From: Elusimicrobia bacterium RIFCSPLOWO2_02_FULL_39_32
GTDB lineage: Bacteria > Elusimicrobiota > Elusimicrobia > 2-02-FULL-39-32
Assembly (NCBI GenBank): GCA_001800135.1
Contig: MGUU01000011.1
Location: 72,842 to 136,841 of the forward strand
Length of the DNA: 64,000 nt
Direction of reading: 5' to 3'
The notes under the pieces were generated by a model. It ran no database searches, was not told the origin of the DNA, and saw nothing but the letters and a program-made list of their open reading frames with translations. Below, in pieces: positions 17,448 through 31,009 of this stretch. A program made the translations under genes and the position numbers. How positions within the stretch are numbered: position 1 is the stretch's first letter; each line of letters starts with the position of its first letter.

Positions 17448-18722
17448 TCAATATAAAAGGTAAGGTTTTACTGTTTCTTGAAATTGGGCTGCTCGTTCAT
17501 GCACTAAGAAAAGAATGGTTTCAGCAGAGTGACCCATTTCCAGCCATGTTTTAAATTCTTTAGAGCCTGTGACCCGCTCTATCTCTTCCCATCTTAAAAT
17601 AAATTTATCTGGATAATAATCCCGCAGGATCACAGCTAAATGCACAAAAAGGTCAAAAGATCTTGCGCTATTTTTATCCTCAACACCTACCTCAATTCCC
17701 TGACACAATTCTCCTTTATAAAGATCCTGTTTTGGCGTAAATTGAGTTTTTTTAATTTTAAAACCTGAAACCCTAAAAAAATTAATCCGTTCAGCCACAA
17801 GAGCTCCATCCATCCAAGGAGCGCCTAAAAGTTTAAATGGTTTTTTTGTTCCTCTTCCAACTGAGACATTGGTTGCTTCAAACGCTCCAATTCCAGAATA
17901 AAGCAGCGCTGCCTCAAGATTTCGTATGTTGGGTGAAGTGGGAACAAATCTCAAATTTGTATCTTCCCACCATAAAGATCTTTTCCAGCCTTCCATTTTA
18001 ATTATTTTTAACCTGGCGTTAATATGTGAGGTTCGGTTGTACCAGTTCGCAAGCTCTCCCACTGTCATTCCATGCCGAACAGGCACTTTAAGATAAGCGG
18101 TAAAATGATTGATTCCAGGATGAAGCGCTTCCCCCTCTACAATGGTCCCTGTAATTGGATTTGGCCGATCCAACACAATCAGTTCAATATCTTTTTTTGC
18201 GCACTCTTCTAACATGTAAGCTAATGTTGTGATATAGGTATAAAAACGAGTTCCGATATCTTGAATATCAAATATCACAGCATCCAGGGATTCAAGCATT
18301 TCTGGAGTTGGCCTTTTTGTTTTTCCATATAAGCTGTAAACCGGAATCCCTGTTTTTTGATCCTTCTCATCCGCAATCATCATTCCGTGTTCCACCTGAC
18401 CTCTAAACCCATGTTCTGGCGCAAATAAAGCCACAAGTTTTGTTTGAGAAGCATTTTTTAAAATCTCCACAGTTCGTTTGCCCTTGCTATCCAGACCCGT
18501 ATGATTTGTAACTAACCCAATCCTTTTGCCTTTAACAGACTCAAAATTCTCTTTTTGCAAAACATCAATTCCCAACAAAACTTTTGTTTTTGTGGAGGCG
18601 GAATAAACAAAATTTCCTGACAATAAAACTAAAAAAATCCCAAAGGGAATCATTTGTAACAGAACCCTTTTTCCTAAAAAATTTTCAAAATCCATTAAAA
18701 AACTAACTTTTAAATAAATCAT
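17448..18722 (-). CDS. namZ: DUF1343 exo-beta-N-acetylmuramidase NamZ-like protein, secreted
   Basis: DUF1343 proteins include NamZ, which removes MurNAc from the non-reducing end of peptidoglycan fragments. The family core starts at VLLGIDVLQKENFESVKGKRIGLVTNHTG; APEHGFRG, FDIQDIGTRFYTYITTL, DRPNPITG and GIGAFEATNVSVGRGT are recognisable. A signal peptide (basic FENFLGKR, then the hydrophobic stretch VLLQMIPFGIFLVLLSGNFVYSA) sends it out of the cytoplasm. ATG at 18722 is chosen because AAGGAA lies seven bases upstream; 18767 and 18695 are alternatives. It is the last of a minus-strand salvage set with anmK and murQ. The role is inferred from family and context. Confidence 0.82.
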   Translation of the reverse strand: MIYLKVSFLMDFENFLGKRVLLQMIPFGIFLVLLSGNFVYSASTKTKVLLGIDVLQKENFESVKGKRIGLVTNHTGLDSKGKRTVEILKNASQTKLVALFAPEHGFRGQVEHGMMIADEKDQKTGIPVYSLYGKTKRPTPEMLESLDAVIFDIQDIGTRFYTYITTLAYMLEECAKKDIELIVLDRPNPITGTIVEGEALHPGINHFTAYLKVPVRHGMTVGELANWYNRTSHINARLKIIKMEGWKRSLWWEDTNLRFVPTSPNIRNLEAALLYSGIGAFEATNVSVGRGTKKPFKLLGAPWMDGALVAERINFFRVSGFKIKKTQFTPKQDLYKGELCQGIEVGVEDKNSARSFDLFVHLAVILRDYYPDKFILRWEEIERVTGSKEFKTWLEMGHSAETILFLVHERAAQFQETVKPYLLY

Positions 18723-18819
18723 AGAATGATTCCTTAGTTGACTTATGGAAAAAGATAAAAAATCCATCCATTTTTTCTAAACAAAAAAATACTCTTTTGC
18801 AAATCATGAGCTATTTCCT

Positions 18820-19977
18820 TTATTCTACAGGCGTAATTTTGCCAAGGATCGTAGCAGAACGCGCTCCAGTCGCCTCTGGACAATGATTGATTTTACCTTG
18901 TATGGCTCGTAGAGCAAAAAAAGCAAAAGCTAGCGGTTCTTTAGCTTGGGTAGGAATATTCCACTTCTCTATGGTTAAAACTGGAATAGGGTAAAGAAGA
19001 GTTTTTAAATGTTCCATTAAAGTATTGTTTAAAGAACCACCCCCGCTCACTATCATTTCTTCTAATGAATAAAATGGCAAAACAAATTTTTCATAAGAAA
19101 GAGCAATGGAATAAGCTGTAAAGTAAGTTAAGGTGTGTAAAACATCGTATGGGAATCTTTTTAAGTTTGCTTTTAAAAACAATGGAATAAAATTTTCATT
19201 AAATAGTTCTTTGCCTGTTGCTTTAGGCGGGTTTTTTTTAAAATAAGAGTGTTGCCACATCTTTTTTATTATTTCCATTCGGATTTTTCCCTTTTTTGCC
19301 ATTTTCCCGTCACAGTCAAACTTTAACTTTCCCTTTGTAATTTTGTTCACTGCCCAATCAATCAAAACATTCCCGGGGCCTGTGTCAAACGCAAGAACTT
19401 TCTTTACTTTTTTCCCCACCACTGAGACATTGGCAATCCCTCCAATATTTTGGAATGCCCGTACAGCTCCTTGACCATAAAAATAAAAATCAAAATAAGG
19501 AATTAAAGGAGCGCCACATCCGCCCAATGCCATATCTCTTGTTCTAAAATCAGAGACCACCGGGATTCCAGCACTTTGAGCTAAAATAGAGGATTCCCCA
19601 ATCTGTAGGGTGCTTGGCTCATTCCCATCTGGGTTATGAAAAATAGTATGGCCGTGTGAACCAATTACGCTTACTTTCTTAGGTGAGACTTTAACTTTAT
19701 CTAATAACTGCAGGAGCACTTTAGCCCAAATCTTAGCAAGCTCAAAATTCAAAGAAGAGATTTCAGAAACAGGAAGGAGTTGAGGTACTGGGGTCAGTTG
19801 CTTCCTCTGAAATTGCCAAGTAGTTTGCACAAAAGAAGAGGAAAGTCGCTTTTGAATTTTTTTTGGATAGAGAACTGTTTTGTAGGCTAAAATTTTAAAT
19901 TTCCTATTTTTAAAATCTGCTAACACGCAAGAAACCCCGTCACAGGAAGTTCCAGACATCAACCCTAACGCTAACAT
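18820..19977 (-). CDS. anmK: Anhydro-N-acetylmuramic acid kinase
   Basis: Opens the 1,6-anhydro ring of anhydroMurNAc and phosphorylates it to MurNAc-6-phosphate, the substrate of MurQ. The ASKHA-kinase phosphate loop is at the start (GLMSGTSCDGV, residues 5-15); IGSHGHTIFH, the ADFKN-like strand, FDTGPGNVLIDW with the catalytic Asp region, and VSGGGSLN near residue 315 follow. Length 385 is typical. An SD-like GAGGG stands four to five bases before the ATG. Its presence implies lytic transglycosylases that release anhydro sugars. Confidence 0.94.
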   Translation of the reverse strand: MLALGLMSGTSCDGVSCVLADFKNRKFKILAYKTVLYPKKIQKRLSSSFVQTTWQFQRKQLTPVPQLLPVSEISSLNFELAKIWAKVLLQLLDKVKVSPKKVSVIGSHGHTIFHNPDGNEPSTLQIGESSILAQSAGIPVVSDFRTRDMALGGCGAPLIPYFDFYFYGQGAVRAFQNIGGIANVSVVGKKVKKVLAFDTGPGNVLIDWAVNKITKGKLKFDCDGKMAKKGKIRMEIIKKMWQHSYFKKNPPKATGKELFNENFIPLFLKANLKRFPYDVLHTLTYFTAYSIALSYEKFVLPFYSLEEMIVSGGGSLNNTLMEHLKTLLYPIPVLTIEKWNIPTQAKEPLAFAFFALRAIQGKINHCPEATGARSATILGKITPVE

Positions 19978-20075
19978 AATCCCTCTAATTGTTCAATTTT
20001 AATTAACCCTTTGAGAATTGCCTGATTTAGCTTCTGATAAGCTCTGCCTAATCCATGAGACTACTTTCTATAGTT

Positions 20076-20161
20076 GCTCAATTTATTGAAACCACTAAAT
20101 TGGGAAACTGCAAATAAATATAAAACTAGATTGAAAAAACAATTTGTTCAATAAATTGAGC
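20076..20161. repeat. 15-base inverted repeat spanning the 3' end of the nucleoside phosphorylase gene
   Basis: GCTCAATTTATTGAA (20076-20090) is the exact reverse complement of TTCAATAAATTGAGC (20147-20161). The arms are 56 bases apart; the right arm lies within the last codons of the phosphorylase gene. It could fold the 3' end of its mRNA but lacks the U-run of a terminator. Confidence 0.45.
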
Positions 20162-20971
20162 CAGCGTCAATTGAAATTTTTTTCCTGTTTTTAGCACTTC
20201 CTCATGGGAACACTTCTCTTTTGAAATGCCAGCGCACCTATTGGTCACTAAAGCTAAACCTAAAACTTCTAGCCCTAAAAATCGAGACACAATCACTTCC
20301 GGAACCATAGACATTCCTATGACATCTGCTCCCAAAACTTGATAAGCTCTACCTTCACTTTTTGTCTCATAAGATGGACCGCTAACAGCACAATAGACTC
20401 CAGAAGCGATCCGCATGCGCAAGCCCCGAGCGATCCCAAGAGCGATCTTTTGCAACCGTTTGGAATAACAATCAGTCATATCCACAAACTGATCCCCAGC
20501 TACGAGTGAACGCATCCCAATTAAAGGATTAGTTCCCATTGAATTAATATGATCTTTAATAACAACCAATTGTCCTGTCTTATAGCTTTTATTGATGGCA
20601 CCCACTGCTGCAGTAAGGATCAAAGTTTTTATCCCTAACTCCCCAGCTAGTTTCACTGTCTGTATAACTTTCTCCATGGAATGGCCTTCATAATAATGCA
20701 ATCGTCCTAAAAAAAGAGCAACTTTTTTTTCTGCTAAAGTTCCAAGAAGAAGTTTCCCGGGATGGCCAGGAGTGGTAGGGACGATAAATCCAGGAATAGC
20801 TGTGTAAGGAATTTGGGCAATAGTTTTTAAGCCTGAAAAACTCTGACCCATTCCAGAACCTAAGATAATCCCAATTTCTGGGTTAAAATCTTTAGGAAAT
20901 AATTTTTTTCTTAAATGCTTCTGCAAAAATGGCGCGCACCTCGAATGAATAAAAATTTTTCTTGATTTCAT
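20126..20971 (-). CDS. Purine nucleoside phosphorylase (class II-type PNP)
   Basis: Phosphorolysis of purine nucleosides to base and (deoxy)ribose-1-phosphate, cytoplasmic, usually a trimer. GIILGSGMGQ (phosphate site) sits near residue 35 and VPTTPGHPGKLLLG contributes a substrate His. GRLHYYEGHSMEKV, TAAVGAINKSYKTGQLVVIKDHIN, SGPSYETKSE with the base-contacting Glu, and DVIGMSMVPEVIVSR all fit the PNP/MTAP family. Length 281 is typical. It could also act on methylthioadenosine. It lies between murQ (18-base gap) and anmK, so the salvage genes are apparently co-transcribed with it. Confidence 0.9.
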   Translation of the reverse strand: MKSRKIFIHSRCAPFLQKHLRKKLFPKDFNPEIGIILGSGMGQSFSGLKTIAQIPYTAIPGFIVPTTPGHPGKLLLGTLAEKKVALFLGRLHYYEGHSMEKVIQTVKLAGELGIKTLILTAAVGAINKSYKTGQLVVIKDHINSMGTNPLIGMRSLVAGDQFVDMTDCYSKRLQKIALGIARGLRMRIASGVYCAVSGPSYETKSEGRAYQVLGADVIGMSMVPEVIVSRFLGLEVLGLALVTNRCAGISKEKCSHEEVLKTGKKFQLTLAQFIEQIVFSI

Positions 20972-20989
20972 ATTTTAATAAAACCCTTC

Positions 20990-21880
20990 CTAAATTATCA
21001 TCCCTAAGAAGCCCTGGGAATTTTTAAGTTCTGTTTTAGCTGCGTCGTAAGAAAGATTCTTTTTCACCATGACAATCGCTGTTTTAACGTTCCAATGAGC
21101 TTTGGCTAATGCTGCCAGCGCTTTTGGACGATTTAAACCAGTGATCTCCTGAACTAAACGAATTCCCCGCTCTTTGAGTTTTTTAGATTTAGCTTGTAAA
21201 TCTACCATACGGTTTCCATAAACTTTGCCTAACCGCACCATACTGATAGTGGTCAACATGTTTAAAACCATTTTAGTTGCTGTGCCGCTCTTTAACCGTG
21301 TGGAGCCAGCAATGATTTCAGGCCCGACTCCTAGAGCAATCACAACTTGCGCGATCTTAGCAAGAGATTGATGTTGATTGCAGGTGACTAAAATTGTATT
21401 TGTCTTTATTTTTTTTGCCTGCTCTAATGCGCTTAAAACAAAAGGGGTAATCCCGCTGGCTGCAATGCCAATGACCACATCCTTTTTTGTAACTTTTCTT
21501 AAAATAAGAGATTTGATTTTAAGTTCTTCATCTTCTGCGCCTTCTTCTGAACGAAACACGGATTTTTTTCCTCCTGCCATCCAGGCTTGCGCTAAAGTTG
21601 GCGGAGTATCAAAAGTAGGAGGAAGCTCTGCGGATTCTAAGACCCCTAAACGGCCACTAGTGCCAGCTCCTATAAAAAAGATGCGCCCTCCATTTTTTAA
21701 ACTGGCAACTACTAAATCAATCGCTTTAATTATTTTTTCTTTCTGATTGGCAATCGCTTTAGGGATTTTAAGATTTTCCTGATTCATTAAGGAAAATATC
21801 TCTTCACGCGTAAGGGAATCCAAAAATTTAGATTTAGGATTGCTTTTTTCTGTGGGAAGCTTATGATACAACACTTTCAC
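20990..21880 (-). CDS. murQ: N-acetylmuramic acid 6-phosphate etherase
   Basis: Removes D-lactate from MurNAc-6-phosphate to give GlcNAc-6-phosphate. A SIS domain is clear: FFIGAGTSGRLGVLESAELPPTF near residues 69-91, with the Glu of the active site, then VIGIAASGITPFV and LVTCNQ. The second half has GPEIIAGSTRLKSGTATKMVLNMLTT. Length 296 is normal. It overlaps the 3' end of the symporter gene by 20 bases and belongs with anmK, namZ and nagZ as the meeting point of muramic acid recycling. Confidence 0.95.
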   Translation of the reverse strand: MKVLYHKLPTEKSNPKSKFLDSLTREEIFSLMNQENLKIPKAIANQKEKIIKAIDLVVASLKNGGRIFFIGAGTSGRLGVLESAELPPTFDTPPTLAQAWMAGGKKSVFRSEEGAEDEELKIKSLILRKVTKKDVVIGIAASGITPFVLSALEQAKKIKTNTILVTCNQHQSLAKIAQVVIALGVGPEIIAGSTRLKSGTATKMVLNMLTTISMVRLGKVYGNRMVDLQAKSKKLKERGIRLVQEITGLNRPKALAALAKAHWNVKTAIVMVKKNLSYDAAKTELKNSQGFLGMII

Positions 21881-23378
21881 TCTCTTTTTTACCTCCTAGC
21901 CAACCAATGGCAAAGGTCAAACAAGTGCCAATGATTAATAGCCAGCTCCAACCCAAAGCAATCATCTTTTTTTCTGAAAGAATGAGTAAAACTAACATGC
22001 ACAGAGCTGAAAAACCCATGGCAAAAATATTTAACTTATTAACTCTTCTTTTAGTGCATAAGCCCAACAAAAAGATTCCGAGTAAAGAGCCGTAGGTAAC
22101 CCCTCCGATTTTAAAAGCTAGCCAAAGAATTTTATCAAAATGACTAAAAGAATAAGCGATCGCGGCAAGGACAATTCCAAAAATAATCACCCCTATTCGG
22201 GATACTAAAAGATAATGTTTCTCAGTTCCATTTTTATATACCAGCGGCCTATAAATATCTGTTACGAAAGAAGTAGTGAGCGAACCTAATGGAGAATCAA
22301 TGCTTGCCATCACAATTGCGGAAAGCATCAATCCTCGCATAAAAGCCGGCATGCTCTGTTCTATAAAAAAAGGAAAAATCTTATCCATCTTTTCTGGAAG
22401 GACAATTGAACTATGCTGAGCATAAAAAGCAAAAAGGCAAGAACCTATGGAAAGATAAATCATTAAGACAGCGAAACTTCCCAAGGTGGTAAGCATCATG
22501 GTTTTCTGGCTCTTATTCCTAGTTTCTACAGTTAATAAACGTTGCATCAGTTCCTGATCCGTGCCAAAAGCAGCCATAGAACCAAAAAGTCCGTTTAAAG
22601 TGGCGATCCAAAAAATATTAGGATCCATCAGCCATTTTTTTATCAGGGCAATTCCCTGGGTTTCAGTCCCGCTGGGTCCCCAATTAAAAACATGCAGTCT
22701 TCCCGCATCTCCTGCAATTTGGATGACACTGCTTAAACCTCCCTCAATCTGATACAACAAAAATAAAATTGTAATGGTGCCACCTAAAATAAAAGTTAAG
22801 GCTTGGATCACATTGGTCCAGATCACTGCTTTAATTCCGCCCCAGGCAATATAAATCATGCTCACCACAGAAAATAATAAAATGGTTGGGAGAATATGCC
22901 AGCCAATCAACACACTGACCGCCAAAGAAGCAGCCATTAAACGAACCCCAGAAGCCAACAAGCGCGTTATAAAGAAAAAAATAGAAGCTGTGGTTTGGGT
23001 GTGCGGGCCAAAACGATAGTTCAAGAACTCATAAATAGAAGAGCAATTATAATGATAAAAGGCTGGAATAAAAAGTGTGGCGATCACGACCCGCGCCAGA
23101 AAAGAGCCAATAAAAAATTGAGCATACTGCCAATTTTCCGTAAAGGCTACTGCCGGCACAGAAATAATAGTGACCGCGCTAATTTCTGTGGCTACAAAAG
23201 AAAGGCAAGCAGCCCACCAAGGAATTTTTCTTGAACCTAAAAAGAAATCCTGAGTATTCTCTTCTTTTTTACCGGCAAAAATCCCAATAAATAAAGAAAA
23301 GAAGATAAGGAAAAGGAGGAGAGAATAATCTTCCCAACTTAAATTGGTGTTCCCAGGAAACCATTGAAAGATATCCAT
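21861..23378 (-). CDS. Sodium:solute symporter (SSS family)
   Basis: Inner-membrane transporter with about 13 helices, driven by Na+. The family start FLGSRKIPWWAACLSFVATEISAVTIISVPA, the SIYEFLNYRFG loop and the GSMAAFGTDQELMQRLL segment are typical. The substrate is unknown; overlap with murQ makes a peptidoglycan-derived sugar (MurNAc, GlcNAc or sialic acid-like) the natural guess. The open frame reaches a TTG at 23438, but ATG at 23378 (MDIFQWFPGN) is preferred because the family starts soon after it; SD support is weak either way. Confidence 0.85.
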   Translation of the reverse strand: MDIFQWFPGNTNLSWEDYSLLLFLIFFSLFIGIFAGKKEENTQDFFLGSRKIPWWAACLSFVATEISAVTIISVPAVAFTENWQYAQFFIGSFLARVVIATLFIPAFYHYNCSSIYEFLNYRFGPHTQTTASIFFFITRLLASGVRLMAASLAVSVLIGWHILPTILLFSVVSMIYIAWGGIKAVIWTNVIQALTFILGGTITILFLLYQIEGGLSSVIQIAGDAGRLHVFNWGPSGTETQGIALIKKWLMDPNIFWIATLNGLFGSMAAFGTDQELMQRLLTVETRNKSQKTMMLTTLGSFAVLMIYLSIGSCLFAFYAQHSSIVLPEKMDKIFPFFIEQSMPAFMRGLMLSAIVMASIDSPLGSLTTSFVTDIYRPLVYKNGTEKHYLLVSRIGVIIFGIVLAAIAYSFSHFDKILWLAFKIGGVTYGSLLGIFLLGLCTKRRVNKLNIFAMGFSALCMLVLLILSEKKMIALGWSWLLIIGTCLTFAIGWLGGKKESESVVS

Positions 23379-23485
23379 GAACTCAGCTATTCTATCATAT
23401 TGAACTTTTTTTAAGTAAATTTTTCCCTTAAGAGACAAAACAGGAAATCGTTTGTGGTAAAAGTATCAATACTTGATTCAGATAT

Positions 23486-26400
23486 CTATGCCTGAATGTT
23501 AATCGTCAGTATCTCTCTAAATTTATTATTAATATCCTCAAGGCTGCGGTACTCTCTCATCTGCATTCCCATAATCAAAAGAATTTGGACTCTGGCTGTA
23601 AAGCTTTCCAACCATCGATCCATGCTATCAGTCATGATTTGAACGCCAAGGCTGGCCCATTTCCAATCTTCCAACTGATGATATACGAAGTCAACGTGAA
23701 TTTTTCCATCTAAGTTTGGATCCACAAGCAAACGCAGCTGTTGGCCCACTATGAGTTCATTTAATTTTTGGAGCCCTTCGGTGTTTGACTTTAATCCATA
23801 TCTCAATCCCTTCACCATATTGTCCAACTCGCCCTGTGATTTAGCCACAAATACAATTCCGCTATTCTTGCCCAGGGCTTCAGGATCAACTTGATTCAGC
23901 ATTCGCATAATGGCACCTTGTACAGCCTTAGGATTACTGACGTCAAATACCTTCGTCTCTGACCCTAAATCAGAAACTTGAAACGTTCTGCCAAAGCGGT
24001 CATTTTCATGCAACATCGCCCACATCCAGGAATAGCCTCTTGCAAAAGCTTCCTCCAGCCGGTCCGCGATATGTCTTTCGACATTATCACCAAGGCTAAA
24101 GGCATCCATCAGATATTTGAATTGTCGAGCAAATTCTAAATCGTCAACCGTTACAGTAATCTTATTGCCTTCGAGTTGCCGGGTTAAAATATTTCTTTCG
24201 ATCTGCGGAAAAATTTCAATTTGGCTTCGTGGGAAGGCTTCGCCAAACGTCCGCCTCACTTGAGGCTCATTCCCTAAAATATGCAGTTTTCCCAAAGTAT
24301 CGAATAGAGAGATTACAGCTTCAATATTCGCTAAATTTCCTGGGGACTGACTTTGAATCTGCTGACCAAGATGATTTTGAATCCTTGCCAATGCTTGCGT
24401 CAATTCCTGGTAGCTCAAGTGCCGCAAACTGCGGACATCCGCATCAAATTGATCCGATGGATGTAGAACTTCCCATAAATCGCCTCGCTTTAGGATAACG
24501 GATAGAAGAATGTCAGAAATAAAAAGCGTCAAGTTCATTACGATGAATAGGCTGGTAAAAGTATGAAGAGGCCAAAGGTTATTGAAGTCAAAGGTAGGGT
24601 GGCCAAACATGGCCCATGTTAGGAGTCCTACTGCAAGATTGCCGAAGAGCCCTCCCAGGCGCACAATGGTTGCTTGCCAGGGCGGCGCACGGCTGTAATC
24701 AATGTTTACCATGCTCCAAAGGGAACCAATACCCAACTGAGTTGGCATCTTAAAAAATTTTGCTAGCGCCCAGTGCAGGAGTTCCTGGACTGGGATGGCG
24801 AGGAAAAATACCGCTCGGGCTGGCAGATTTTTGAGCCATGCTAAATTTCCTCTATACATCGTTGCCGTAATTGAGGGAGTTCCATCGCTTTCAGCAACAT
24901 GGTTTTTGGTTTTTTCTTGTTCCTGGAGAACGAAATTTATAGCACGATCTACATTTGATAAATCAGATCCTATACTCGTTGCGTGACGCACTTCTCCATA
25001 TGCAATGTAGAATGCTTTTAGCCATAAAAGACTGTCTATGGCTACTGAAAAGTGCTCTTCAGCAACATCCGCCTCTTCCGAAATTTCTTCTTTTACCTCA
25101 AAAGTTTTTGCCATGAGTTGATCCAATTCCTGATCGAGTATCCGGCCACTATATGGGAAGAACAATTTTTTCTTCATTCCCGGAAAATAAAGTTCTTTAT
25201 AGGACAAAATGTTCTCCATATTGGCGATAGGCCGTCCATATCCCGCATAAATCATGGGTACAATATTGACATAAGCTCCCCGAAGCGCGTAAGAAATAGT
25301 TATATCCACGGTTCTTTTTAGCTTGTCTACGCTGTCCCATGGCGTGAAAAGAATCATATTTATGCCTGGGCGAATTCCGCTTTTCAATGTGCTTTCTAAG
25401 GCTCGAATATTATCTTCGGGGGTGGACCTTTTGCCTATTTCATCTAAAACTTTGGGATTGAAGGACTCAATCCCATAAGCCATAATTTCAATGCCGGCCT
25501 CTTTAAAAAGACTGGTTATTTCATCCGTGACCCGAGTTACGCGGCACACAACAATTTTTGGCACATCCTTAAATTTCGATTCTTTAAGCGCCTGCGCCAG
25601 TTCAATCGCATAGCTCGGTTTAAACAAAAAATCCACGTGTTCAAAATGAATGCTGTCATGGTCATCGAAATTTTCTTCAATAAATCGCATCACTTCAGGA
25701 ACCGGTGGAAATCTTCTAAGAAACAAGTTCACGCCGCAAAAAATACAATCGGCTTCGCAGAAGTCAGACATGACAACCCTCAATGGATTCTTGCCAATGC
25801 GGTCAAACATAATCGGTACGTTTTTAGATTCCATTTGTTCCCGATAATAATTGAAATGCGTCAAATCATCTTCGCGATATGGGATGTCTTCATCGACATT
25901 TTGGTATACAGGCTGAAGCCTATTCGCGCTTTTGGTGATATAAATCTTGGAATCATACACGGTCATTAGACCGGGGATACTACTCAAATGATCCAAATTG
26001 TGCTCCCGACTTTTATGGGCATGAATGTGTCTCATAACGTCTATGATTGACAAGGGATCAATGATGTACAAAGACACCGGAACCGCCTGAACGAAATTTA
26101 AAAAAGGATTTTGCGAGACTAAAGGCAGGCCTAATGGTAAATCTCCAAAATTAAAACTCTTTGTAATGATCGGGAGCTCATGGCCTCCCATCATGATCAA
26201 TGCTTGTGGTTGCATCTGATGAACCCGAGACAGAATTTCAAGGTTCCTCTCGATAACGGACTGAAGAAAACTAAAAGCAATTACGTCGAATTTTTCATTT
26301 TGAACGAATTCGTAAAGATCCTCCATGCTTGTCAAATTGGGATTGTAAACTCGCGCGTCTACGTCCTCCAACTGCCTCAAAAGGAGGAAGGAAATGTATT

Positions 26401-29400
26401 CAACCCCCTTGTGAGGCGTAAAATATTTCAGTTGACCCCCTTGTTGGTTTCCATATGGGGCGATGAGCAAAATCTTCTTATAATCGGAAGTTGCTTTTAT
26501 CCCGTTTCTTTGGAAGGCTTCCAAAGGACTTACCCCTTCGTTTATCACGGCTAATAATGCTCTATCAATCAAGTCCTTCGAGTCGTTTCTTAAAGCTAAA
26601 AGAATAGAAGACTCTTGAGAAGGCATGGAATTCCCCAATGACTTGGCCAAAGATTGAGGAATAGGCAGCCGTAAGCTTCCTCTACGAAAAACCCATTGGG
26701 CTAGCTTTTTATTGAACTCAAAGACAACGTTTGCCGTCTGGTTGGATAACACCTCTGATGCCTCGTTAATGGGCGAACTGTTTTCAATTTTGGAAGCGGC
26801 CCGCCCTGTGCCATTGCCAATAAATAAGTAACGAGCCAAAGCACGCCAAGTTGTGTGTCGTTTCAAGGGGTCCCGATATCCTGGCACAATCGTTCCAAGG
26901 GAACTTTCCTTTTTTCTTGGGTTCGTCGTTGGATTGTCATGAATTTCATAAAAGGCGCGAAATGTGACCTCAGGGTGGTTTGCCAGGAACCGAGCCAAAT
27001 AACCTAATTCAAGTTCCAATCCGCCTCCTCCGAGTTGTTTGATCCGTTGCGTTAAAGTAATTGGTTCGTTTAACATCGTGGGCACAGTCCAAATTGGAAT
27101 TTGATGGATTTTAACCCCTTCTGGTAACTCTAACTCGTCGATATTTACATTATTAGTAGGAACTCTATTTAATTTCCTCCCCTCCAAATAAATATCGGAA
27201 TAAAGAATTAAATCATTGATATGATTGCCCTCCCCAATTCCTCCGCAGACGTCGTGAAGTGTGATGTCCCGAATACCAAGTCCATCCTCAGCGGATGATT
27301 TGATAAAAAATTCACCGGTCTCTGCAATAGCCCAACTCCCAGTGTTTTGAATATTAAACAGAAGAACCGGCTGACCTCCGTTTACTCGGATCACGGCAGC
27401 ATCTACATAATCGGCTTTAATCCTGTCAATCACTTCAACGTGAAGAAGAGGATCTTCCGAAATCACCTCGATATACTTGTCCACTTCAAAGAGCAATATG
27501 GCTTTTTGAATATTTCCTGAGTATTTCCTCAAATGTCGCGCCAAAACCTTCTGAATCCCTCCATCGTTGAATATTCTGATAAGGATGAGATCCTCTGGAT
27601 AGCCATAATATTTGTAAAGGGCTTGAAGCAAAAATAATTCTCTAGCTCCTCCGCCAATATTTGCAATCACATATCTCAACGTTTCTCCTTGCTGGACGAA
27701 ATAGAATTTTTGAGGGGATCGTACGTCTGGAAGCTCTGTAACGCTATACCCTTGCTTTTTAAGGTTCTCGAGATATGCGGCAGTTACGGTGAGGGAGCCT
27801 CTATGCAATTCAATTTTATGCTTCTTTTCTCTTATTTCCGATAGAATCTCGCGGGGAAATTTTGTTTCCAGCATTTGGGCCACATTAAGCGAATGGTCCT
27901 CATCCCTTTTCGAAATGTCCATATGAAGATAATCGTTTGGTTTGAATGGAATTTCCTTTGAACCCACAGAAATATTCATTTGCGGATGCAAGGCATCCCA
28001 TAAATCGCCTCGCTTTAGGATAACGGATAGAAGAATGTCAGAAATAAAAAGCGTCAAGTTCATTACGATAATTAGGCTGGTAAAAGTATGAAGAGCCCAA
28101 AAGTTATTGAAGTCAAAGGTGGGGTGGCCAAACATGGCCCAGGTTAAGAGTCCTACTGCAAGATTGCCGAAGAGCCCTCCCAGTCGCACAATGTTAGCTT
28201 GCCAAGGTGGCGCGCGGCTATAATCAATATTGACTGCGCTCCAAAGGGAACCGATGTTTACTTGAGTCGGCATCTTAAATAGTTTTGCGAGAGCAAGATG
28301 CAATGTCTCTTGGACTGGTATAGCAAACAGAAAAACGATTCGAGCGGAAAGGTTTTTTAGCCAACTCAACCTGCCATTAAATGCTGTGGCGCTAATGGAT
28401 GCTACCTGACCAAAAATATCTTCAGGCTGAGAGTGAACTATTGAGTACCTATAGCCCTTGTGGCTGAGGCTTGTATTCAAAGGCATTATATATCCATTTT
28501 TAACCTGTATCGAACCTTCGGAATCTTCTCGTTGAACGACCAGTGTCATCTCAACATCTCTATGATCAATCTGATCTCCAGCTAACTCTAATTCTATAGT
28601 TAGCTGTTCAACCTGTCCTTTTTCATTCCTTACTTCTCTAACCTTTTTAAGTTCCGCATGATCAATGACTTGCTTCCAAAAAGCTTGAGAATCAGGACTT
28701 TGCGTTCTGACGAGCTCAAAAATTTTTGCTATGTTACCCCTTAAAGTTTCCTCAAACTTATCGTCAAAATTTGTCACATCCAGTGCGGTTTTAAGGGTCT
28801 CCTCTCCAATTTCCAAAGTGACCGCTAGTTTGGGAATGAGCACCATGTTAGGAAGAGCCTGTCCTCCTATTGGCTGTGCAGCGCCGATCCCTTGGGATTT
28901 AAGAGTAATTTTTTCGCAGCTGAATAGCTTTTCCAACGGCGTTTTTTCGCGGCGGAAAACATTAAGATATTCTGTTCCATCTCCTTCTACCTTGCCCAAC
29001 TGAGGCGTGAAGACAGCATAGGCGACTTGCTCATGCCTTAGGATTTCAGTAATCCCTGTGGTATGGAACCCTCCAGCAACCAAAACGGCAATGCGCGATT
29101 CTTGTGAAGCGCTTTGAGACTGGATTTTAGCGAGAAAATTTTTTACGATAATTGTATTTCGAGCAATCGCGGCTTCGCTGAATTTTTCAAAAGGCCTAAG
29201 GAATCGAGAGAGGTTTGGTTGCGGTACTGATTGAACATTTCCGGAAAGCCGTTCAATCCGATTTTGAATATTCTGAATCTCCTGAATACGAGAGCTATAT
29301 TCTTGCCATTCTACCGGGCTCAATCCAAATGCGACTAATTTCTCCAAGAGCAAAATATCTTGAGATATACGAACTAGCTCTTTTTCCTGGGGTGTCTGGA

Positions 29401-30751
29401 TCAGCGCCTGGAGCCTTTTATTCTTCAGTGCTTCAATCTCCGCAAAAAGATCTTCCGCTTGTACCTTGTCACACTGAAAGACGTAACGGATGTACTTGTC
29501 CATTTCCGGCCAATCTCGGATGCTCACCCCATAAGCCTGGCTCATATCTCGGAGGTACTGATAAAATGCTCCATAGGTTAATTCGCCCAGTTGATAGGAG
29601 AGACTGGCGGAAACCAAATTCTTAAGCTCTGCTTTGGGAAGTTTGCTGACCAATTTTTCTGTCAGTTCCTTCCGCTCTTTTTCGACCTGACTGTAATTGA
29701 GAGATTCTTCCAGCTTTAATGTGGCCAAGAATTTACCGATGGCGTTCTTATCGGAAACCAAAGAGCCGTCTTTGGCTAGGAACTTGATATATTCTCCTAA
29801 CTTCAGTTGTCCCTTGACGTTTTGGGCAATCTTAGTGTCCAGATCTTTCAATTCTGAGTGGAAAATTTTCTCTTTTAGAAGACTTGCTTCGCCATTGAGC
29901 TTTAGGCATATTGCTTTAGCATTCTTCTCTGATCCCGTGGTGTCCTTGAAAGCTTGAACATGCTCCAAATAAGGCTTTTCATCTTCGACGCCCCAGAAAA
30001 GCGGGAGCTGTTCGGTTGTAAACCCGACATATTCCGGTCCTGTGATGAAGGATTCTTTCAAGAAATAATCGGCGATGGCTTTAGTAATTTCCTTATCCGG
30101 GAAGGACCTATAGAGCGTGAAATCAAAAGCTCCGCGCGCGCCTTCTATGCCAACGACAACTGGAGACTGAGCTTTAGCCGGTGAAATAGCGGCGCTGCCG
30201 TCCAACTTGGAACCTTCAACTTGGGACTTAACGAGCGCCTCGATCATCCTGGCTATATTTCTCTGTGCCTCATAATTTTCATGAACGTCCTGAATATGGA
30301 TAACCATGGGATCTGAAGGTTTCCATGAGGGCGGGAGGTAAAGCTCTTTCAAATTCACGTGGTTCATAGGAACGGATTTGACCCACTTTGGTAAGGAGTT
30401 AGACTTTGGAACGGAAGGGAAATTTTCTTTAATTTGCTCTTGAGCTTGCAAGCTCAGGAAAGATGAAAAGGTATTTTGGCCAAGATTGGAAACGGTAGGA
30501 AACGAATTTGATAAGACATTTACATCTATTGAAGACAGTTGAGCCAAAAGAGTATTGCCGTTCTCAGGCAACGGCACTTTGGCGGCAACATTCTCTTCTG
30601 CGCCTCGCCTTTTATCGTTATAAAGTTTCTCGGTTGCCTTTCTTCTTTCCTGCCAAAATTTTGATACAGGCTCGATGGCTCCATAAGCAATATGGACATA
30701 AAAAAAGACTATCGCCATGCCTAAGGAGATATAGCGAAGCCATTGTTTCAT
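23486..30751 (-). CDS. Giant multi-domain membrane protein: ChaN/TraB-like, two M50-like membrane modules, B12-binding/radical SAM core
   Basis: About 2,421 residues. In order: a signal-peptide-like start (MKQWLRYISLGMAIVFFYVHIAYG). At about 148-570, a ChaN/TraB-like domain (MVIHIQDVHENYEAQ, VVVGIEGARG, and LVAGGFHTTGI near its end). At about 792-918, a hydrophobic module with VQETLHLALAKLFKMPT and RLGGLFGNLAVGLLTW. Then a long unassigned region. At about 1424-1560, a B12-binding-like fold (KILLIAPYGN, VIAFSFLQSV, IMMGGHE). A radical SAM domain follows with CEADCIFC near 1665 and IEIMAYGIESFNPKVLDEIGK. At about 1967-2094, a second, nearly identical copy of the hydrophobic module; then an unassigned C-terminal domain. 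In each module E-x-x-H plus GN resembles the metal site of site-2 proteases with the first His replaced by Gln. ATG at 30751 is favoured because it opens the signal peptide. Function unknown. Confidence 0.8.
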   Translation of the reverse strand: MKQWLRYISLGMAIVFFYVHIAYGAIEPVSKFWQERRKATEKLYNDKRRGAEENVAAKVPLPENGNTLLAQLSSIDVNVLSNSFPTVSNLGQNTFSSFLSLQAQEQIKENFPSVPKSNSLPKWVKSVPMNHVNLKELYLPPSWKPSDPMVIHIQDVHENYEAQRNIARMIEALVKSQVEGSKLDGSAAISPAKAQSPVVVGIEGARGAFDFTLYRSFPDKEITKAIADYFLKESFITGPEYVGFTTEQLPLFWGVEDEKPYLEHVQAFKDTTGSEKNAKAICLKLNGEASLLKEKIFHSELKDLDTKIAQNVKGQLKLGEYIKFLAKDGSLVSDKNAIGKFLATLKLEESLNYSQVEKERKELTEKLVSKLPKAELKNLVSASLSYQLGELTYGAFYQYLRDMSQAYGVSIRDWPEMDKYIRYVFQCDKVQAEDLFAEIEALKNKRLQALIQTPQEKELVRISQDILLLEKLVAFGLSPVEWQEYSSRIQEIQNIQNRIERLSGNVQSVPQPNLSRFLRPFEKFSEAAIARNTIIVKNFLAKIQSQSASQESRIAVLVAGGFHTTGITEILRHEQVAYAVFTPQLGKVEGDGTEYLNVFRREKTPLEKLFSCEKITLKSQGIGAAQPIGGQALPNMVLIPKLAVTLEIGEETLKTALDVTNFDDKFEETLRGNIAKIFELVRTQSPDSQAFWKQVIDHAELKKVREVRNEKGQVEQLTIELELAGDQIDHRDVEMTLVVQREDSEGSIQVKNGYIMPLNTSLSHKGYRYSIVHSQPEDIFGQVASISATAFNGRLSWLKNLSARIVFLFAIPVQETLHLALAKLFKMPTQVNIGSLWSAVNIDYSRAPPWQANIVRLGGLFGNLAVGLLTWAMFGHPTFDFNNFWALHTFTSLIIVMNLTLFISDILLSVILKRGDLWDALHPQMNISVGSKEIPFKPNDYLHMDISKRDEDHSLNVAQMLETKFPREILSEIREKKHKIELHRGSLTVTAAYLENLKKQGYSVTELPDVRSPQKFYFVQQGETLRYVIANIGGGARELFLLQALYKYYGYPEDLILIRIFNDGGIQKVLARHLRKYSGNIQKAILLFEVDKYIEVISEDPLLHVEVIDRIKADYVDAAVIRVNGGQPVLLFNIQNTGSWAIAETGEFFIKSSAEDGLGIRDITLHDVCGGIGEGNHINDLILYSDIYLEGRKLNRVPTNNVNIDELELPEGVKIHQIPIWTVPTMLNEPITLTQRIKQLGGGGLELELGYLARFLANHPEVTFRAFYEIHDNPTTNPRKKESSLGTIVPGYRDPLKRHTTWRALARYLFIGNGTGRAASKIENSSPINEASEVLSNQTANVVFEFNKKLAQWVFRRGSLRLPIPQSLAKSLGNSMPSQESSILLALRNDSKDLIDRALLAVINEGVSPLEAFQRNGIKATSDYKKILLIAPYGNQQGGQLKYFTPHKGVEYISFLLLRQLEDVDARVYNPNLTSMEDLYEFVQNEKFDVIAFSFLQSVIERNLEILSRVHQMQPQALIMMGGHELPIITKSFNFGDLPLGLPLVSQNPFLNFVQAVPVSLYIIDPLSIIDVMRHIHAHKSREHNLDHLSSIPGLMTVYDSKIYITKSANRLQPVYQNVDEDIPYREDDLTHFNYYREQMESKNVPIMFDRIGKNPLRVVMSDFCEADCIFCGVNLFLRRFPPVPEVMRFIEENFDDHDSIHFEHVDFLFKPSYAIELAQALKESKFKDVPKIVVCRVTRVTDEITSLFKEAGIEIMAYGIESFNPKVLDEIGKRSTPEDNIRALESTLKSGIRPGINMILFTPWDSVDKLKRTVDITISYALRGAYVNIVPMIYAGYGRPIANMENILSYKELYFPGMKKKLFFPYSGRILDQELDQLMAKTFEVKEEISEEADVAEEHFSVAIDSLLWLKAFYIAYGEVRHATSIGSDLSNVDRAINFVLQEQEKTKNHVAESDGTPSITATMYRGNLAWLKNLPARAVFFLAIPVQELLHWALAKFFKMPTQLGIGSLWSMVNIDYSRAPPWQATIVRLGGLFGNLAVGLLTWAMFGHPTFDFNNLWPLHTFTSLFIVMNLTLFISDILLSVILKRGDLWEVLHPSDQFDADVRSLRHLSYQELTQALARIQNHLGQQIQSQSPGNLANIEAVISLFDTLGKLHILGNEPQVRRTFGEAFPRSQIEIFPQIERNILTRQLEGNKITVTVDDLEFARQFKYLMDAFSLGDNVERHIADRLEEAFARGYSWMWAMLHENDRFGRTFQVSDLGSETKVFDVSNPKAVQGAIMRMLNQVDPEALGKNSGIVFVAKSQGELDNMVKGLRYGLKSNTEGLQKLNELIVGQQLRLLVDPNLDGKIHVDFVYHQLEDWKWASLGVQIMTDSMDRWLESFTARVQILLIMGMQMREYRSLEDINNKFREILTINIQA
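24471..24849 (-). repeat. Internal direct repeat, C-terminal copy of the membrane module in the giant gene
   Basis: About 380 bases matching 27996-28376 in the same orientation. The first 74 plus-strand bases (24471-24544) are identical and the next ~140 differ at only about a dozen sites; similarity falls off toward 24849. It encodes about 126 residues, including VQELLHWALAKFFKMPT. Confidence 0.9.
27996..28376 (-). repeat. Internal direct repeat, N-terminal copy of the membrane module in the giant gene
   Basis: Partner of 24471-24849. It encodes VQETLHLALAKLFKMPT, then RAPPWQANIVRLGGLFGN and NLTLFISDILLSVILKRGD. Identity at synonymous positions over the first part points to a recent duplication or gene conversion. 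Confidence 0.9.
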
Positions 30752-31009
30752 GTTGTTTTTTTCCGTTCTCATTCTGGTCGTGGATGGATATTTATATCCT
30801 GTAATTAAGCCCAAAAAGGGACTTATTTTTCAACTATATAATTATAGCTGAACGACCTAAACTTTTCTTAAACTTTTTGTAACGAAAATGTAACAAAATT
30901 CGCCTCGAACACCGTTTTTCACCCAACTTTTTTATAAAAAACCATCTCCATACAACAAAAAAATTTAGAGAAACCAGTAAGAGAAAAATGGGGAAATCAA
31001 ACTATTTTT

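Follow-up and report, generated by a model that had tools for sequence, protein, structure and literature searches.

A giant Elusimicrobiota gene with a Tiki/ChaN-like head, and the gene family and promoter element to which it belongs

Why should one bacterial chain join a signal peptide, a hydrolase-like head, membrane modules and a cobalamin (B12)-dependent radical SAM domain, and is such a chain a single odd fusion or a member of something larger? The question is raised by a gene in a 64,000-nt stretch (the window) of contig MGUU01000011.1 from Elusimicrobia bacterium RIFCSPLOWO2_02_FULL_39_32, in which a first-pass annotation had seen a giant chimeric protein. Giant open reading frames (ORFs) are known in Omnitrophota and Elusimicrobiota, and adhesion or predation is their usual reading (PMC10066038, PMC12057145); the functions of those catalogued are described in the literature as poorly understood. 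The window gene is of this kind, with thousands of codons in a single frame, a predicted signal peptide and membrane helices. The reading that we favour, with a probability of about 0.6, is that it belongs to a family of giant modular membrane proteins, presumably exported, which combine a Tiki/ChaN head with variable middles of captured enzymes, share a common promoter and have a role in the cell envelope.

The gene is a single open frame (Table 1), and the uninterrupted frame of about 2,420 residues reported earlier holds at 2,442 codons from a TTG, with the correction that it lies on the minus strand. The plus-strand reading of 23486-30751 is ruled out by stops throughout, and an in-frame ATG at 30751 reproduces exactly those limits. 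All of the sequence blocks quoted at first sight were recovered, namely HIQDVHENYEAQ (H178), VVGIEGARG (E224) and CEADCIFC (C1686), as was the E-x-x-H of both hydrophobic modules (QETLH at Q835 and QELLH at Q2010). Similarly, the signal-like N terminus is predicted to be a Sec signal peptide from hydropathy and the family alignment, with cleavage probably after AYGA; typical sibling sites in the alignment are FAEA or FAQA, followed by W-x-ERR.

Table 1. Features of the giant gene and its surroundings in the window (residues counted from the TTG).
Feature	Residues	Position	Strand	Basis or remark
Whole ORF		23486..30814	minus	2,442 aa from TTG
Likely start, ATG	22	30751	minus	ATG at 30772 as alternative
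Predicted Sec signal peptide	22-46	30677..30751	minus	hydropathy and family alignment
Family head: W-x-ERR and putative Tiki/ChaN-superfamily domain	24-641	28892..30745	minus	motifs; model pLDDT 78
M50-like 3-helix module 1, QETLH	804-942	27989..28405	minus	hydropathy, motif
Region without detectable relatives	about 943-1440	26495..27988	minus	genome searches, Pfam
B12-binding domain	1474-1546	26177..26395	minus	PF02310, E 1.1e-6
Radical SAM domain, CEADCIFC	1681-1834	25313..25774	minus	PF04055, E 1.7e-14; Foldseek
M50-like 3-helix module 2, QELLH	1979-2117	24464..24880	minus	hydropathy, motif
Tail	2118-2442	23489..24463	minus	core 2200-2440 common to six other giants
Peptidoglycan-sugar salvage genes, probably co-transcribed (SSF symporter, MurQ, purine nucleoside phosphorylase, AnmK, NamZ)		17448..23438	minus	
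-10 element TATAAT		30841..30846	minus	19 nt after box
Giant-gene promoter box GTTACATTTTCGTTACAAAAAGTTTAAGA		30866..30894	minus	11-bp direct repeats, Pho-box-like

A frame of this size might be an artefact of misassembly or frameshift, and an internal 368-bp repeat in the gene and the break of the sister-species assembly at the same locus would fit such a view, which we nevertheless regard as hardly credible. The repeat copies, which are the two membrane modules, have 84.5% DNA identity over the 368 bp. They differ at 57 sites, are never identical for more than 74 bp in a row and show a dN/dS of 0.08/0.64 (= 0.13), and these differences and this ratio point to a genuine, selected duplication rather than an assembly echo. 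Also, the contig runs on for tens of kilobases on either side of the gene, the frame is open throughout and sibling giants of equal length occur in many assemblies. The gene is real, and is predicted to encode a membrane protein of about 2,400 residues, probably exported, with a B12 radical SAM domain. In the sister species (G001), only the last 249 codons of the gene were found, at a contig end, so that no second full copy backs the exact window architecture; the order of tail, symporter and MurQ is kept there at the contig start. Elsewhere in the sister genome (C39, about 41.8-45 kb; L156), the gene next upstream of the window gene adjoins a transposase-like gene and the truncated head of a different giant, at the place where the window gene would be expected to start.

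The head carries the blocks IQDxH, xxEGA and GG(F/Y)H. In the Tiki superfamily, which has endopeptidases among its known members, the active proteins contain a pair of His, a pair of acidic residues and a single basic residue (PMC6254334). In the window head, the corresponding set follows in the expected order (D176-x-H178, E224, R552, H584). It is invariant in 18 paralogs except for one Asp-to-Glu change, and its residues are kept in 36-39 of the 39 relatives compared in other genomes. The Pfam family Cofac_haem_bdg (PF04187; Tiki, ChaN) is recognised in 12 of the 39 heads, at best with E 7e-7, the window head itself giving no match to this profile. The head model places strand-helix elements at the motifs; Foldseek returned no significant match for it in the PDB, HopBA1 standing at rank 45 (probability 0.12) and the long helices of the model making this search uninformative. 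From the motifs and the weak profile matches, support for the head as a Tiki-like hydrolase is good but not final, and the ChaN/TraB-like domain first proposed is in this form upheld, with its putative catalytic residues kept. The heads share with the Tiki/TraB/ChaN/erythromycin-esterase superfamily the motif order acid-x-His, Glu, Arg, His, the usual His-to-Glu spacing (most commonly 27-28 in the heads) and the weak PF04187 matches among relatives, whereas they carry a large helical insert between the second and third motif and usually have Asp, not Glu, as the first acid. They also differ in always forming the N terminus of a long ORF: among the loci examined, no head was found as a closed stand-alone gene.

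Of the two Pfam domains, Radical_SAM lies over its cut-off and B12-binding just under; the Pfam scan gave no other match of weight in the window protein. Among NCBIfam models, the domain lies near HpnR, RiPP C-methyltransferases and BchE, and the BchE and Sden_1168 profile models align over both the B12-binding and the radical SAM domain. The closest solved structure by sequence is AprD4 (E 0.018). The AlphaFold model of residues 1440-1980 is of low confidence (pLDDT 44, from an alignment of 4 sequences), and its Foldseek result was used only as backing for the profile match; the top ten PDB matches are the cobalamin radical SAM enzymes CysS, MgmA, TokK and AprD4 (E 3e-8 to 1e-6). The B12/radical SAM segment of the first-pass annotation is supported by both lines, and the structural matches speak against a CxxxCxxC segment that is something other than a radical SAM barrel. 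A B12-binding domain followed by a CxxxCxxC radical SAM domain is the layout of CysS, TokK, MgmA, AprD4, HpnR and BchE, which are the best structural and profile matches of the window domain; it differs from them in being embedded in a membrane giant and in falling far below every curated equivalog cut-off. Radical SAM chemistry tethered to the membrane may take place in such a protein.

The two M50-like modules, as first described, are borne out as three-helix membrane modules with E-x-x-H, but not as carriers of HExxH, the motif being QExxH in the window modules and in most relatives. They resemble M50 site-2 proteases in their three hydrophobic helices, E-x-x-H and motifs similar to GPxxN and N...D, and one relative, in which the head is fused with an inositol monophosphatase (L053), has a full HELFH with a Peptidase_M50 match below cut-off (E 0.006); the window protein itself has no M50 match in Pfam. 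Because the first zinc-ligand His is replaced by Gln, zinc proteolysis by the modules is unlikely, and 'M50 protease' denotes a likeness in motif layout only. Helix 1 of the module fails a stricter hydropathy threshold and passes a laxer one, hydropathy topology being crude.

Proteolysis matters for one other view of these chains, which is that they are polyproteins, cut after export or membrane insertion by the Tiki head or another protease into enzymes that act separately. The head has a complete Tiki active-site set, from a superfamily with known endopeptidases (PMC6254334), and M48 and S8 protease domains occur in siblings and relatives. However, the same head precedes middles of very different kinds, the chains showed no conserved linker resembling a cleavage site, and the S2P-like modules of the window protein lack the first zinc ligand, and we consider this view unlikely.

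Two long regions had been said to match nothing recognisable. This stands for residues of about 943-1440, for which there was no match in the giants and no Pfam family (residues 985-1445 were also searched without a match in 147 genomes of the class), but not for the C-terminal region, which is also present in six further giants of this genome. The tail is under purifying selection, with 98% amino-acid identity to the sister species and a dN/dS of 0.007/0.040 (0.17). No orthologue of the whole window architecture was found. The region without relatives would suit a one-off fusion in which a radical SAM enzyme is anchored in the membrane for new chemistry, unrelated to the role of the other giants, as would a head-bearing ORF of 2,413 aa in another genome (G033, contig 432), which also has B12 and radical SAM domains, beside an aldo/keto reductase and NUDIX, and a membrane segment with HEFLAH. 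We hold such a fusion to be very unlikely, since the head, the tail and the promoter are a property of the family, and similar giants carry quite different cargo.

The chimera is not one of a kind: the genome encodes 19 further giants that have the complete head. Including the window gene, the whole head is found in 20 ORFs of 2,033-13,472 aa (E < 1e-140), and a further ORF has a minimal head. These 21 head-bearing ORFs and one more giant amount to 128,510 residues, about 15% of the 2.52-Mb assembly. Nor is the phylum Omnitrophota, as first supposed: the genome is congeneric with an Elusimicrobia MAG and belongs to Elusimicrobiota. Of 248 genomes sampled across this phylum, 57 have the head, the named records being Elusimicrobia MAGs and Ca. 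Obscuribacterium magneticum. The middles vary and have up to 64 predicted membrane helices. In the part of the giants scanned with Pfam, they contain SecA, triosephosphate isomerase (TIM), GAPDH C-terminal, M48 peptidase, PP2C, cNMP-binding, SLOG/LSDAT and UDPGP domains and ABC1 kinases.

Several giants deserve separate description. About 133 kb of one contig (G000 C16:206,900-339,300; L030-L037) is taken up by six giant ORFs of 2,311 to 11,491 codons in tandem, all on the same strand and with few boxes in between, possibly as one or a few enormous transcripts. On the same contig (C16:113,629-154,047; L019-L021), the frame of 13,472 codons contains a repeated block with ABC1 kinase and M48 peptidase; a giant on C18 has this block too, about 35-37% identical across 2,000 residues. 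A SecA-like motor occupies residues of about 2141-2708 of a giant with a signal peptide (G000 C25:133,994-147,295; L015), with 35% identity to the cell's SecA and intact Walker A and DEAD-like motifs.

Such captured domains could be evolutionary debris, that is, non-working pieces that pile up in fused genes. The captured SecA and TIM are indeed divergent extra copies (32-35% identical to the cell's ordinary ones), and ordinary SecA and TIM genes persist elsewhere in the genome. In addition, the sister species keeps a mere remnant of the window gene, and one membrane-rich stretch of a sibling reaches a dN/dS of 0.7-0.8. Debris would nevertheless hardly be expected to keep frames of up to 13,472 codons without a stop, or catalytic residues in the head, SecA (Walker A and DEAD-like motifs) and TIM (IGHSE and YEP), and GAPDH also retains SCTT. 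Comparison with the sister species shows two complete sibling giants to be under purifying selection (overall dN/dS 0.26 and 0.34), with most 300-codon windows below 0.4 (0.14-0.36), and the promoter box is kept across genera. We regard decay of this kind as quite unlikely.

A promoter element is also shared by most of the family. The box KTYACANNNNNNTTACAAAAAGTTKAAGA, with repeats GTTACA..., was found through similarity upstream of the window gene, and has 38 sites in the genome against 0 for a backward control. It precedes 13 of the 21 head-bearing ORFs within about 550 nt and in the correct orientation, against a chance expectation of about 0.1. A further 14 sites stand before large, predicted exported ORFs with other N termini, mostly >1,000 aa, several of which are cut off by the sequence stretch examined. 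A match of at least 5/6 to TATAAT follows 32 of the 38 boxes at 17-23 nt, nearly always at 19-20 (shuffles, 4.8). Conservation of the box extends to two genera of the bacterial family (42, 27 and 7 sites in three genomes), with no site in five genomes of other families; in genome G003, four of the five listed heads have it within about 75 nt upstream. A plain sigma-70 promoter was considered and rejected: about 20 nt separate the -35-like TTKAAG from the -10 element, a longer spacing than usual, which makes an activator more likely. At loci L192-L211, the box precedes a second class of large, predicted exported proteins with a different N-terminal domain. It also stands before a CheY-like receiver (C16:206,769) and a LacI-type regulator (C20:65,370).

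Which activator might act here is suggested by the surroundings of a sibling. The genes phoB-phoR-porin-pstS-C-A-B-B-phoU lie directly upstream of a giant with TIM and GAPDH domains (G000 C8:25,990-46,700; L014, L214), whose own box is in the gap; its sister-species counterpart also has a box upstream. This adjacency makes PhoB the leading guess, and we give roughly even odds to control of the box by PhoB or a closely related regulator. In Bacillus subtilis, the Pho half-site is TTAACA. The giants' box resembles PhoB/PhoP Pho boxes in its 11-bp direct repeats, in a half-site similar to TGTCAT (E. coli) or TTAACA, and in lying where a -35 element would be, but differs in standing mainly before giant genes, its strong form being absent before phoB and the pst genes. 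What precedes the porin-pst genes are 11-bp repeats of the form GTCATA-N5-GTTACA-N5-TTTACC, which score low with the box matrix. A Pho box is defined as two 7-nt repeats with a 4-nt spacer, i.e. an 11-bp period (PMC3131613); no definition with TTAACA repeats was found in the literature.

The window giant probably opens an operon for peptidoglycan-sugar salvage. The salvage genes from the SSF symporter to NamZ begin 47 bp downstream on the same strand. No terminator-like site was found in this gap, and the giant's promoter may therefore drive them. Upstream and divergent are NagZ and a BadF-type ATPase, a possible GlcNAc kinase. These neighbours bear on an ecological reading, in which the giants act as surface proteins or weapons with which the bacterium, as predator or parasite, attaches to other cells and digests them; the head and the captured enzymes would work on the prey, and the salvage operon would take up the released material. 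Besides NamZ, AnmK, MurQ, NagZ and the symporter, precedent speaks for it: giant ORFs of Omnitrophota with many membrane helices have been read as predatory (Seymour et al., PMC10066038), and giant genes are said to be common in Elusimicrobia and are read as surface weapons (PMC12057145). However, MurNAc salvage genes serve ordinary self-recycling too, and Pfam found no adhesin, glycosidase or carbohydrate-binding domain in the window protein and few in the siblings scanned. Predation therefore seems to us the less likely account, though one with a real chance, and it is compatible with the modular-family reading as an ecological purpose.

Under the modular-family reading, every giant begins with a predicted Sec signal and a head of the Tiki/ChaN hydrolase type, the C-terminal tail is common to several, and the variable middle consists of membrane modules and captured enzyme domains, several with catalytic motifs kept; in the window protein, the captured enzyme is the B12 radical SAM domain. 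Most giants would be switched on upon phosphate limitation from the common promoter, which would depend on an activator, PhoB or a near relative of it being the likeliest candidate. The secreted head would act as a hydrolase in the periplasm or at the surface. The first three-helix module would thread the chain back to the cytosol, where SAM, cobalamin and reductant would be available to the radical SAM domain, and the second module and the tail would close the membrane anchor. Across the family, the helices before cytosol-type cargo are odd in number in about 8 cases and even in 4, which is suggestive but not significant, and this parity weakly supports the proposed topology. Against that topology, near-identical modules in one chain would need opposite insertion orientations. 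Given its probable co-expression with the import and salvage of MurNAc and GlcNAc, we place the likely job of the window giant in the turnover of the cell wall or envelope, or in scavenging at nutrient shortage.

Compared with the giant ORFs published for Omnitrophota and Elusimicrobiota (Seymour et al. 2023; PMC11573180), the present family shares the very long frames, the signal peptides, the many membrane helices, the few annotated domains and the same bacterial radiation. Accounts of those giants stress few domains, adhesins and poor conservation, whereas in the present family the conserved head has a catalytic set, the tail recurs, the promoter is shared and enzymes of housekeeping type are embedded in the chains. 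In the papers on giant ORFs that we found, there is no account of the head, the promoter box or the captured enzymes, though a preprint by West-Roberts et al. may overlap. The conserved head, the recurring tail and the common promoter make a single family of what were unrelated oddities, and probably a single regulon, in which the inducing signal, the substrate of the head and the membrane side of the captured enzymes become testable. Divergent copies of core genes (SecA, TIM, GAPDH) appear to have been recruited into proteins predicted to be exported. A bolder proposal, which we advance tentatively and with less than even confidence, is that about 15% of the genome forms a coordinated, phosphate-controlled regulon, in which each secreted Tiki-type hydrolase is joined through membrane passes to captured enzymes. 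If this were true, a B12 radical SAM enzyme, a SecA motor, glycolytic enzymes and kinases would be wired covalently to an envelope hydrolase.
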